Positions 2,230 through 63,153 of a stretch of DNA of 64,000 nt are shown piece by piece. This stretch comes from Psychrobacillus psychrodurans (GTDB taxonomy: Bacteria > Bacillota > Bacilli > Bacillales_A > Planococcaceae). The stretch spans positions 62,001-126,000 of the forward strand of contig FOUN01000007.1 of assembly GCA_900114885.1 (NCBI GenBank), written 5' to 3'. The translations under genes were made by a program, and so were the position numbers. The notes under the pieces are model-generated. The model searched no databases. It was not told the DNA's origin and saw nothing but the letters and a program-made list of their open reading frames with translations. The stretch's first letter is position 1. Each line of letters begins with the position of its first letter.

Positions 2230-2691
2230 TTAAATCTTTTTTCGTTCATACGTTAGTTGAGTAATAAAGAAATCGGGTTCTATTTCGACATCCACTAATT
2301 TTGTAAAATTATGTCTTTCATATAATGTGATTGCTGGTGTATTTTTTGCACCAGTTGATACAACTATCTTTTTTTCATTTCCATAGACGTTTAATAGATA
2401 ACTTAATAACTCTGATGCAATTCCTTTTCGAAAATGATTAGGATCTACTACAAGCCTACAAATGTCAATTAGTTCCTCTGTACCTTCATAAGAAAGAAAA
2501 CCTACTAATTTCGAGCCATCCAACTTCCCGAGAAATTGTTCTTTAGAACTTTTTATATTTTCTACTGTATCTAAAAGCTGTGGTATTCCATCGAATCCTA
2601 TTAAATCAGCTTCAACTTTATATGCTGGTAGTTGAATTGATAGAATACTCTCAGCGACTTTTTCATCATTGTGATTGACTAATTGAATCAT
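2230..2691 (-). CDS. GNAT-family N-acetyltransferase
   Basis: This 153-residue protein has the GNAT fold pattern. A mid-protein strand (residues about 78-85) is followed by the acetyl-CoA loop VDPNHFRKGIASELLSYLL (about 86-105), which carries the R-x-G-x-A signature, and then by the YERHNF motif near 131 typical of the last helix-strand unit. The substrate cannot be told from sequence. It starts at an ATG 20 bases downstream of rsgA and may be cotranscribed with it. A terminator follows. Confidence 0.85.
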   Translation of the reverse strand: MIQLVNHNDEKVAESILSIQLPAYKVEADLIGFDGIPQLLDTVENIKSSKEQFLGKLDGSKLVGFLSYEGTEELIDICRLVVDPNHFRKGIASELLSYLLNVYGNEKKIVVSTGAKNTPAITLYERHNFTKLVDVEIEPDFFITQLTYERKKI

Positions 2692-2711: not shown

Positions 2712-3767
2712 TCAGATTTTCTTTTTATAATTATTTCGTTGGGACTTCGCTATTTGCTTCCATTTATTCGTTTCAGCTTTTTTAGCTATTGCATCGTTTT
2801 TACGATCGATATGTGCAAGCTCTCTCATTAGTTTTACATAACTTTTGTATCGTTCTCGTTTGAGCGTACCATTGTAAATAGCCTCTTGAATTGCACAGCC
2901 CGGCTCTTTTACATGCTGGCAATCACGGAAGCGACACGCTAACGCTAGGTCTTCGATGTCCTGAAAGCTAGCACTAACTCCTTCACTCGTATCCCAAAGC
3001 TGAAACTCCCTCATACCAGGTGTATCAATTAATAAGCCCCCTTGTGGTAACAGCGTCAGTTCTCTATGTGTAGTCGTATGGCGCCCTTTACTATCATCTG
3101 TCCTTATATCATTTACAGCCATTACTTCTACACCTGATAATGCGTTAATCAAAGAGGATTTCCCTACTCCTGAAGATCCTAAAAGTGCGCCAGTTTTATG
3201 TGCAGCCAACAGATTCCCCAGAAGATCAATACCCTCTCCTGTAACACTACTCACTGCAAATATATCTACACCAAATGCAATAGCCTCAACTTCTTTAATA
3301 TAATATTCTAGGTCTTCACAGGTATCTTTTTTCGTTAACACCACAACCGGCGTCGCCCCTGAATCCCATGCCGCCAATAGGTATCTCTCTAGTCTACGGA
3401 CATTGAAGTCATGATTAAGTGACATAACCAAAAATACAAAATCAACGTTTACAGCGATTAATTGAATTTCCGTAGTCAATCCCGCCATTTTCCTAGAGAA
3501 CTGCGAGCTGCGAGGAAGCACTTCATGAATGATTCCTTTTTCCTCACCAGGCATCTGATCAAGCACTACCCAGTCTCCAACTGCCGGAAATGCTTCCCTA
3601 TTATGCTCAAACTTAAATTTCCCGGAAAGTGAACTTAGTAACTCTCCTTCATTGGTCATAACTCTATATAAATTTTTATGTTCCAGTAAAACGCGACCTG
3701 CGATTCCACTACCTGTCATTTTTTCTTCCCAATTATTATTCCATCCATATTGTTCGATTAAATTCAA
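2712..3767 (-). CDS. rsgA: RsgA-family circularly permuted GTPase, long form
   Basis: RsgA-type GTPases act in 30S ribosomal subunit maturation. The 351-residue protein shows the circularly permuted order: OB-fold region first, then G4 TKKD (145-148), G1 GSSGVGKS (197-204), G3 DTPG (248-251), and a C-terminal zinc site Cys278/Cys283/His285/Cys291. It is longer than the roughly 300-residue B. subtilis CpgA type, so it may be a second paralogue; the canonical copy would lie outside the window. The start is a TTG behind AGGAGG. The upstream leader ORF and terminator suggest attenuation control. Confidence 0.88.
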   Translation of the reverse strand: MNLIEQYGWNNNWEEKMTGSGIAGRVLLEHKNLYRVMTNEGELLSSLSGKFKFEHNREAFPAVGDWVVLDQMPGEEKGIIHEVLPRSSQFSRKMAGLTTEIQLIAVNVDFVFLVMSLNHDFNVRRLERYLLAAWDSGATPVVVLTKKDTCEDLEYYIKEVEAIAFGVDIFAVSSVTGEGIDLLGNLLAAHKTGALLGSSGVGKSSLINALSGVEVMAVNDIRTDDSKGRHTTTHRELTLLPQGGLLIDTPGMREFQLWDTSEGVSASFQDIEDLALACRFRDCQHVKEPGCAIQEAIYNGTLKRERYKSYVKLMRELAHIDRKNDAIAKKAETNKWKQIAKSQRNNYKKKI

Positions 3768-3793: not shown

Positions 3794-3830
3794 AAAAAAA
3801 CCATGACTGCACAAATCAGCAGTCATGGTT
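3794..3830 (-). terminator. Leader terminator upstream of rsgA
   Basis: A perfect 12-bp stem (3819-3830 with 3799-3810, 8-base loop) is followed on the minus strand by seven Ts (3800-3794). It sits between the leader ORF and the rsgA start, so transcripts from the promoter at 3960-3989 must read through it to reach rsgA. Confidence 0.85.
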
Positions 3831-3862
3831 TCCCGGTCATTAGTAAAGAAGCATGTATCTGG

Positions 3863-3928
3863 TTAGAGACATACAGAGTGGGACATCATGAACTTACTGA
3901 TTCGTGGATACGTATATAGATTTGCCAT
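3863..3928 (-). CDS. 21-residue leader peptide upstream of rsgA
   Basis: A short ORF with an ATG at 3928 sits 9 bases after an AAAGGAG ribosome site (about 3938-3944). It encodes a peptide starting MANLYTYPRISKF and ending MSHSVCL, then TAA. The promoter lies before it and an intrinsic terminator after it, the arrangement of a translation-sensing attenuator. There is no run of a single amino acid's codons, so ribosome stalling by an inhibitor or by the peptide fits better than amino-acid sensing. I do not recognise the peptide. The function is inferred; the ORF, ribosome site and hairpin are seen. Confidence 0.6.
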   Translation of the reverse strand: MANLYTYPRISKFMMSHSVCL

Positions 3929-3959
3929 AATGCCTCACTCCTTTCTTTAAGTTATTTTC

Positions 3960-3989
3960 AGAATACTACAAGTATTAGCAATCTGTCAA
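3960..3989 (-). promoter_or_regulatory. Promoter of the leader-rsgA transcript
   Basis: On the minus strand a perfect TTGACA (3989-3984) is followed after 18 bases by TATTCT (3965-3960). The leader ORF begins about 30 bases further on. Confidence 0.6.
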
Positions 3990-4053
3990 CATATAATTAT
4001 GCAACTTGCTATTTTGAATAAAGGACTTTAATAATACTGCTGATTTTCGTTTC

Positions 4054-4225
4054 ATGCGGACGCTTTCCGCGGGCGAGGCCGAGCCTCCTTGGGCCAGTAT
4101 GATGCTAATTATAAATTGTCGACATACGCATTTTAATACTTAGCCTTCGTTCCTATAAACGCTCCCTGTGGAGTCTCGACTTTCTCGCTTATCCCGCTGG
4201 AGTCGCCGCATTCCACTGCAATCAA
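4054..4225. repeat. Dispersed Bacillaceae-type intergenic repeat, copy 1
   Basis: This GC-rich block in an AT-rich gap of about 540 bp contains GACGCTTTCCGCGGGCGAGG near its left end and GGAGTCGCCGCATTCCACT near its right end. I recognise this as the kind of intergenic repeat scattered in Bacillaceae genomes. A second, reverse-oriented partial copy lies at 26929-26992. An AT-rich stretch (about 4096-4140) interrupts the middle. Nothing else is evident from 4226 to 4468. Confidence 0.6.
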
Positions 4226-4468
4226 TAAAGCGAGTAGTAATTAATCATTAATTAGAATAAAAAAATTCTATTAAAAACAATGAATATGCAAGGTCATATA
4301 CAGACCCTATCCACCTTAAGACAACTGAACGAGTAGAAATCAACAAAAAATCTAGCCTCTACCTGAATAGAAAAATGCAGATATAGAAGCTTTAAGTGCC
4401 CTTACACAAATGAACAAATCTTCAATAAAAATGATTTCTACTTCCAACACTTGGTGTAAAGAAGCCAT

Positions 4469-18654: not shown

Positions 18655-18758
18655 TCTCTTCTTATCTTCAAGCTAACGCTTCTGGAATTAGCACAGTACA
18701 TAATTGCCTGTTGCTGAGGTATCATAGGGCCAAGTCCCTCCACCTCTCTTGATAAGAA
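18655..18758 (-). ncRNA. SAM-I (S-box) riboswitch upstream of cyclase-metE-like operon
   Basis: The minus strand carries the S-box signature: CTTATCAAGAGAGGTGGAGG, then CCTATGATACCTCAGCAAC, then TGTGCTAATTCCAGAAGC, and the closing GATAAG that pairs with the 5' CTTATC as P1. The K-turn and SAM-binding core segments are intact. It should terminate transcription when SAM is abundant. Confidence 0.95.
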
Positions 18759-62734: not shown

Positions 62735-62893
62735 CCTCTTATCTCTCAGAAAGTAAACTTTCTGATGGAATTAGCACCGTGCCTTACGGAATCTTACATT
62801 CCGGCGCATAAAGCGCCCCGTCTCACAACGGTATTACGGTCGGTTGCTGGGCGTCATCGGGCCATTATCCCTCTGCCTGCTCTTGATAAGAGT
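62735..62893 (-). ncRNA. SAM-I riboswitch upstream of mtnK
   Basis: The minus strand shows CTCTTATCAAGAGCAGGCAG, then the core CCCGATGACGCCCAGCAACC, a long variable arm, and ACGGTGCTAATTCCATCAGA, closed by GAGATAAGAG. The aptamer is about 50 nt longer than the others here because of an extended P3/P4 region rich in GC. SAM should terminate the mtnK operon. Confidence 0.95.
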
Positions 62894-63015: not shown

Positions 63016-63049
63016 CAATATAATTTATTAAACATCAACTGAATATTTT

Positions 63050-63153
63050 TCTTATTTAGAGCAGGTGGAGGGACAAGCCCTATGATACCCGGCAACCGAT
63101 TCATTTTTGAACACGGTGCTAATTCTTGCAGCCAATAGGCTGAGAAATAAGAA
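63050..63153 (+). ncRNA. SAM-I riboswitch upstream of mtnW
   Basis: TCTTATTTAGAGCAGGTGGA opens the aptamer, then CCCTATGATACCCGGCAACC, ACGGTGCTAATTCTTGCAGC, and AAATAAGA closing P1. All S-box core segments are intact and the terminator follows at 63168. Confidence 0.95.

Follow-up and report, generated by a model that had tools for sequence, protein, structure and literature searches.

A ribosome-stall-sensing transcription attenuator probably controls an accessory RsgA gene in Psychrobacillus psychrodurans and its relatives

Ahead of a long-form rsgA gene in the window (the whole 64,000-nucleotide stretch of Psychrobacillus psychrodurans contig FOUN01000007.1 analysed here) we found a leader ORF whose 3′ half is predicted to pair either backward, with its own Shine-Dalgarno (SD) and start region, or forward, with the intrinsic terminator that precedes rsgA. 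Quite probably, this leader attenuates transcription in response to stalled ribosomes and so controls an accessory RsgA that is inducible by stress. We are highly confident that a conserved, translation-dependent attenuator is real, and the folding models make it fairly likely that its trigger is very early ribosome arrest; a role of the accessory RsgA in drug or translation stress is something we infer with about even confidence. Leader-ORF attenuators have flagged ribosome-protection genes before, as with vmlR and hflXr. RsgA is known chiefly for its part in 30S assembly, and the conserved attenuator of a second copy suggests a stress or resistance function that has yet to be studied. The finding could also explain why a second RsgA recurs.

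An attenuator dependent on translation had been proposed at this place in a first-pass annotation made from the sequence alone. The promoter, SD, 21-codon ORF, terminator and TTG-started long-form rsgA that it described were all recovered in place on the minus strand. The features are as follows, with pairing strands taken from folds and duplex predictions.

3960-3989, minus strand: sigma-A type promoter, TTGACA (3989-3984) and TATTCT (3965-3960) with an 18-nt spacer, matching 10 of 12 consensus positions
3938-3944, minus strand: leader-ORF SD, AAAGGAG, read from the sequence
3863-3928, minus strand: leader ORF of 21 codons plus TAA (3865-3863), ATG at 3928, peptide MANLYTYPRISKFMMSHSVCL
3925-3941, minus strand: predicted 5′ strand of the anti-antiterminator (AAT), the leader SD/start codon region
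3875-3891, minus strand: predicted 3′ strand of the AAT, codons 13-18
3880-3906, minus strand: 5′ strand of the antiterminator (AT) duplex, end of codon 8 to codon 16
3810-3834, minus strand: 3′ strand of the AT duplex, the terminator 5′ arm and loop plus the GGGA just ahead
3845-3874, minus strand: post-ORF hairpin over the stop codon, then TTCTTT (3850-3845), from the fold, in the AT apex
3794-3831, minus strand: intrinsic terminator, hairpin 3831-3798 and then seven T to 3794
2712-3767, minus strand: long-form rsgA, TTG start, 351 aa (PF03193 177.9 bits; TIGR00157 179 bits, cut-off 100)
2230-2691, minus strand: GNAT acetyltransferase ORF, 153 aa, 20 bp downstream of rsgA

A consensus promoter scan gave 6 sites in the 1-kb region against 3.4 expected, and the TATTCT box together with a TTGAC-like box recurs in most of the named Psychrobacillus leaders. 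The AT duplex (3906-3880 / 3834-3810) has 22 pairs at -28.2 kcal/mol and is mutually exclusive with the terminator. Its outer part consists of 10 pairs between CACGAATCAG (3906-3897) and CTGATTTGTG (3819-3810) in the terminator loop, and further inward UCCC pairs with GGGA. The antiterminator of the first-pass annotation, AAGTTCATG with CATGACT, is real but makes up only the inner part of this duplex of about 22 pairs, and the hairpin of the start region (3941-3925 / 3891-3875) was missing from it altogether. That hairpin is the AAT, with 16 pairs at a predicted -20.9 kcal/mol. As for the terminator, the hairpin followed by seven T was borne out, but its stem is longer than the 12 bp first given, with 13 perfect pairs and 15 in the computed fold. 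A simple consensus terminator scan gave another hairpin, at 4309, but not this terminator, which came from reading the sequence and from a separate hairpin/T-run script. The post-ORF hairpin and TTCTTT could possibly serve as an RNA polymerase pause element. Folding of the 193-nt leader gave a z of -6.2, beating 200 of 200 shuffles. A DNA search of the organism's own genome revealed no second copy of the leader, the 14 other matches being short and the best of them (E 0.014) being the terminator's own palindrome. Between an oppF-like ORF and the rsgA promoter, the window carries a repeat (4030-4230) found at 64 genomic places including itself (E <= 0.001), and other repeat-like sequence lies upstream of rsgA in Viridibacillus (L015-L017).

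We propose that with no ribosome on the leader, or with one finishing the ORF, the AAT would re-form ahead of synthesis of the AT 3′ strand, and transcription would then stop at the terminator. If the ribosome were instead held at about codons 1-5, it would cover the SD and start codon, blocking the AAT and leaving codons 8-16 free, and with these codons free the AT would form and rsgA would be transcribed. Further along, at codons 6-15, the ribosome would itself cover the AT strand and rsgA would stay off, which makes this a codon-resolved prediction. The natural trigger would be early arrest by lincosamides, pleuromutilins or streptogramins A, with context-dependent phenicol/oxazolidinone arrest as the alternative. 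Reasoning from HflXr, it is likely that the RsgA paralogue made in response would act on blocked ribosomes or 30S subunits, clearing them or maturing them again.

To place the ribosome we folded the leader with a 31-nt footprint masked and the transcript cut just before the terminator 3′ arm. In this cut transcript of the window all of the AT formed while the P site was at codons 1-3. It was reduced with the P site at codon 4 or 5 and did not form from codon 6 through about codon 15, and a ribosome at codons 18-21 left the outer AT helix free. Among the 79 family leaders that carry the full pattern described below, the last P-site codon at which at least 70% of the AT pairs were retained was codon 4-8 in every case, and in the eight profiles inspected the AT was lost with a ribosome on the AT strand. 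From this masking profile, we read the leader as a sensor of ribosomes arrested on the first codons. Without a ribosome, the equilibrium fold of the cut window transcript gave a probability of 0.98 for the AT and 0.01 for the AAT, and the AT was likewise favoured in the eight profiles inspected except in L086 and L132. In the complete window transcript the terminator won in every state tried, the stalled states included. Since equilibrium folding gives the AT for the cut transcript and the terminator for the complete one, both states must rest on folding kinetics; in such a model the OFF state must depend on the AAT forming first, and the ON state on the AT lasting until the polymerase has passed.

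Within the family (Planococcaceae), a long-form RsgA was found at E <= 1e-85 in 212 of 261 genomes, and the order-level search was run on this same sample of 261. We hand-picked 100 upstream regions over the genera from the matches listed and added the window, which gave 101 leaders. Conservation of the ORF and its ribosome site among relatives had been set beforehand as one of two points on which the proposal should stand or fall, and here it stood: an ORF with an SD of at least 6 matching bases was present ahead of long-form rsgA at 98 of the 101 loci, where shuffles led us to expect 3.1. All 18 Psychrobacillus leaders have an ORF of 21 codons, over relatives it ranges from 20 to 29, and the alignment gaps inside it measure 3 nt in genus g17 and 3 and 9 nt in genus g13. 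A hairpin before a T-run was found by script in 18/18 Psychrobacillus leaders and 97/101 family loci, the script having taken in several loci a different hairpin from the one after the ORF, and in 82 of the 97 hairpin loci the ORF-terminator AT duplex was equalled or beaten by no more than 5 of 100 shuffles.

We defined the full pattern as this hairpin and duplex together with an ATG ORF of at least 14 codons and an AT edge 18-36 nt from the start. It was present in 79/101 long-form rsgA leaders of the family and, as a control, in one of the 56 genes of the window, namely rsgA itself; 18 of these 56 had an upstream hairpin with a T-run and 3 a strong duplex. The script missed the pattern at 22 of the 101 loci, including 6 of the 8 leaders of genus g12, which failed at the duplex test, suggesting that the ORF-terminator pairing is weaker in that genus. 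Twelve of the 22 misses were inspected by eye. In ten of these a strand of the ORF matches the loop of the terminator, and in the other two, L084 and L117, the match is only partial. In two Sporosarcina-like leaders, L108 and L114, about 190 and 250 extra bases separate ORF and terminator compared with L101; these insertions are related, lie inside the AT apical loop and leave both pairing strands intact.

The distance from the start codon to the AT edge was 21-33 nt in 87 of the 91 leaders with an ORF, a spacing that is partly built in since the script required the ORF to overlap the AT edge. Codons 3-8 of the leader peptide vary between species and the geometry stays constant; a limit set by masking at the early codons would explain why this distance is kept while the codons vary. 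As read from their sequences, the leader peptides appear to carry no arrest motif that marks an inducer. Residue 2 is Ala, Ser or Thr in 69 of 91 peptides, a raw count without a baseline, and such a residue would fit phenicol/oxazolidinone arrest. The motif TTNTTT, present in 18/18 Psychrobacillus leaders, is not general, occurring in 36/79 overall against 18.9 expected.

A comparison of the hairpin across relatives had also been called for, and it showed that the antiterminator pairing is kept through compensatory changes. We built MAFFT alignments with hand-named structures and ran 500 shuffles on each: A1, Psychrobacillus (18 rows); A2, the Sporosarcina-like genus g17 (18 rows); A3, genus g13 (21 rows, 20 distinct); and A4, five further genera (18 rows). 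The share of AT cells that are paired is 99.0%, 95.2%, 89.2% and 68.6% in A1 to A4, and pairing falls to 26-51% in all four when the partner is slid by 1-3 columns. Cells changed on both sides number 5, 3, 34 and 28, with shuffled means of 0.8, 0.5, 11.6 and 11.3. In A1 they fall in 3 pairs (0 and 1 of 500 shuffles reached the cell and pair counts) and in A2 also in 3 pairs (2/500 for both counts), and no shuffle of A3 or A4 had as many changed cells. The covariation score was reached by 0, 9, 0 and 0 of the 500 shuffles. Other counts showed no excess: the pair types in A2 (102/500) and A3 (479/500), the changed pairs in A3, whose number (5) equals the shuffled mean (347/500), and the changed pairs in A4 (66/500). 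The strands themselves differ by genus (GATCGGAC/GTCCGATC, CAAATCGG/CCGATTTG, CAAATTGG/CCAATTTG and GCAATTCGG/CCGAATTGC), and in L047 one AT pair has gone from A-U to U-A.

For the AAT, 98.6% of cells are paired in A1 and 94.0% in A2, with no excess of pairs changed on both sides (reached by 98/500 and 102/500 shuffles, respectively). In folds of the transcript as it stands before the AT 3′ strand, the start region pairs with the 3′ half of the ORF in 79 of 79. The modelled AAT is argued for mainly by this recurrence across folds, its covariation being weak. On comparative grounds, we take the forward pairing of the ORF 3′ half with the terminator 5′ arm and loop to be demonstrated, while the backward pairing with its own SD and start is predicted, with weaker comparative support than the AT.

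The product of the gene has the RsgA motifs GSSGVGKSS, DTPG, TKKD and CRFRDCQHVKEPGC, and both its GTPase and zinc-finger motifs are intact. It passes the cut-offs of PF03193 and TIGR00157 and falls short of those of two narrower RsgA models, NF008931 and NF008932. The best solved structures were 6h4d (141.6 bits), which we take to be Pseudomonas RsgA, then 5no2, 7boi and 2ykr (about 139 bits), presumably from E. coli, followed by 1t9h (127.8 bits) and 6zhl (91.2 bits), which we assume to be the B. subtilis and S. aureus proteins. The GNAT acetyltransferase ORF downstream is perhaps co-transcribed with rsgA. In named Psychrobacillus relatives protein identity is as high as 92-94%, and 18 further genomes belong to the genus of the window genome. 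A single in-frame TGA lies within the long-form RsgA match of eight genus g17 genomes (G165, G171, G182, G187, G188, G198, G209 and G212), and it may be near the C terminus.

An RsgA copy of at least 206 bits occurs in all 31 genomes searched, and we took it as the housekeeping one. With two or three RsgA genes in 18 of the 19 genomes of the window genus, sequence comparison identifies the window gene as an accessory paralogue beside housekeeping rsgA. No leader ORF was found upstream of the housekeeping gene in any of 20 regions, using nearly the same criterion. Because the gene is an accessory paralogue, a role in stress or drug tolerance is more likely than control of routine 30S maturation; with this amendment, the translation-dependent attenuator of the first-pass annotation is supported. 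The window genome has a third RsgA gene, as have five others in the genus; in the window genome it is a second long-form copy (L002, contig C8, 225215-226180) that is 46% identical. L002 has its own leader ORF, MATTYMVVWS, and terminator, and by eye this leader is nearly identical to those of L208-L210 from three family f3 genomes; it is possible that L002 was acquired by horizontal transfer.

The same attenuator could instead sense slow or scarce initiation, caused for example by defective 30S subunits, and so provide drug-free feedback on 30S maturation. The target is a 30S maturation GTPase, and masking gives the ON position to a ribosome poised at the start codon, both of which fit. However, when no ribosome is present the start region is already paired by the time the AT 3′ strand appears, which favours the OFF state, and a shortage of initiation should then lower rsgA rather than raise it. 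This argument is not firm, given that the cut window transcript favours the AT without a ribosome. What also speaks against such feedback is that the housekeeping rsgA, found in 31/31 genomes, lacks a leader of this kind (0/20), and we consider the feedback unlikely. A classical leader peptide, where the ribosome stalls when a single amino acid runs short, would have a similar layout of an ORF with alternative terminator. It was rejected because the leader peptides have no codon run; in addition, codons 3-8 differ between species as the geometry stays, and the target is not a biosynthetic gene, leaving this a most improbable explanation.

Extensive conserved pairing would also be expected of a ligand-binding riboswitch or of a leader bound by a protein, in either case with an incidental ORF, and this by itself would explain the conserved 3′ half of the ORF. 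It would not account for the SD and ORF kept in 98/101 loci, nor for L156 and L157, where the shared pairing strand is translated in a different frame and the ORF still ends just past it. Known riboswitches were rejected since no Rfam family reached its gathering score in the leader, where three sub-threshold matches only (E 0.38-0.76) were obtained. We think a leader of this sort very unlikely here. Elsewhere in the window there are three SAM riboswitches (18659-18758, 62736-62892 and 63049-63153). The last candidate is an ordinary terminator of an upstream transcript with a small ORF placed by chance. T-run hairpins are indeed common, preceding 18 of the 56 window genes, but the shuffle controls, the window controls and the compensatory changes all oppose it; the pattern counts in window genes and family leaders make the combination unlikely, and taking everything together we give it next to no credence. 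An attenuator that senses early ribosome stalls is the reading we retain.

Such an attenuator is already known in kind. In the vmlR leader of Bacillus subtilis (an ARE-ABCF), as excerpts of PMC9226507 describe it, an ORF inside an AAT hairpin is followed by a pause hairpin and a terminator, the pause hairpin forms the apex of the antiterminator, and arrest at initiation induces. The rsgA leader appears to be laid out in like fashion, with the ORF start in the predicted AAT, a candidate pause hairpin and T-rich motif in the AT apex, and a terminator. The excerpted description of vmlR differs in giving a 3-codon ORF, an extra SD-sequestering hairpin and an ABCF target, compared with 20-29 codons and a 30S GTPase for the rsgA leaders; the likeness to it is one of layout only, and TTNTTT is constant only in Psychrobacillus. 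A second parallel is hflXr (lmo0762/rli80) of Listeria monocytogenes, where, according to the portion of PMC6310831 used here, a second ribosome GTPase lies under an attenuator and confers drug resistance. In both cases a leader-ORF switch of terminator, antiterminator and anti-antiterminator, the last of these predicted for rsgA, stands ahead of the second copy of a GTPase associated with the ribosome. By the same portion of that source, HflXr is a homologue of a subunit-splitting factor with a 14-aa leader that carries an RLR macrolide motif, whereas the window has a 30S GTPase and no RLR. The window protein is an RsgA by PF03193 and TIGR00157 and not a homologue of HflX, and the comparison with HflXr covers the way of working only.

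An RsgA pair is also on record in Streptomyces coelicolor, where SCO6149/SCO5211 are named among paralogues in excerpts of PMC7157823, one being WblC-activated and rising with tetracycline. As excerpted, this WblC/WhiB7 case is one of transcription-factor control and not of an attenuator, and we compare it as an RsgA pair, leaving orthology to the long form aside. The main text of the premature-terminator survey PMC2965389, in the version consulted, is without the terms GTPase, yloQ and yjeQ, and PMC3669203, in excerpt, concerns the salt tolerance of rsgA mutants. Among the papers listed in searches of the open-access literature (subscription papers being mostly outside their scope) we found no report of an rsgA attenuator, and likewise no description of an interchange between terminator and SD as output or of the breadth of rsgA leaders.

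Beyond the family, the long form was found at E <= 1e-72 in 108 of 250 sampled Bacilli genomes, belonging to 44 of 105 genera. We collected 60 further leaders, nearly all from other families: 57, of which three are second copies, plus two Alkaliphilus loci and the second long-form copy of the window genome. A strong-SD ORF was present in 38 of these 60, compared with 3.8 expected, and 22 had none by script. Twelve leaders, from families f22, f11 and f36, were picked by eye as one type and aligned as A5. Pairing of the ORF 3′ strand (GTCACAGGAATCCTC in L172) with a strand further downstream is kept in 99.4% of the A5 cells; 8 changes affect both sides (0/500 shuffles), and the number of changed pairs shows no excess (3; 127/500 shuffles). 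The downstream strand can alternatively pair with the rsgA SD in 72 of 72 cells, a pairing without covariation in which 5 of 6 pairs are invariant. On sequence grounds A5 looks to be a translation-attenuation layout that follows the same logic. In L156 and L157 a 4-nt gap shifts the frame, with the ORF still stopping just past the pairing strand, which argues that translation across the strand is kept and not the peptide.

With a strand able to pair either with the ORF 3′ strand or with the rsgA SD, these 12 leaders resemble the translation attenuators of ermC type. In the ermC type, arrest on the upstream strand breaks the hairpin. The window locus is unlike them, as its output is a terminator and early arrest would be expected to free the upstream strand. 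Attenuators of ermC type are among those named in PMC6310831, as excerpted.

Two Listeria monocytogenes records have, by eye, an ORF (MAIVKMENLIINTGVFYL) together with GCTCC/GGAGC pairs that cover the rsgA SD. One long-form rsgA of Listeria monocytogenes (L213, 3001-4026), whose leader ORF and SD-covering hairpin were likewise seen by eye, adjoins pnp and rpsO. Tentatively, and with slightly less than even confidence, we suggest that a distinct long-form RsgA is across the Bacilli a drug-inducible GTPase dedicated to rescue of the small subunit, a 30S counterpart of HflXr. Ribosomes that freeze during initiation or at the first peptide bonds would be split or reset by it. A single early-stall logic would govern it through outputs that can be exchanged, transcription termination in the family of the window and SD sequestration in other families, including Listeria.

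A spread of the leader beyond Bacillota was unsupported, as only 2 of 9 Verrucomicrobiota leaders have an ORF by a laxer test (SD of at least 5) and nothing in the nine was consistent. A relative occurs on 46 plasmid records (20 listed), always at less than 60% identity; 43 of these plasmids are non-mobilizable, 2 are mobilizable and 1 is conjugative. Spread on plasmids was set aside as an explanation, as no resistance cassette pattern was seen among the plasmid matches listed. On plasmid pMGMM7 of Lysinibacillus fusiformis (L214), what appears to be a terminator remnant (TTGCGCAGATACAAGGTTTTTTTAT) lies upstream of a long-form rsgA, with no leader ORF seen in about 400 nt, and the gene itself stands directly ahead of a fosM-type gene.
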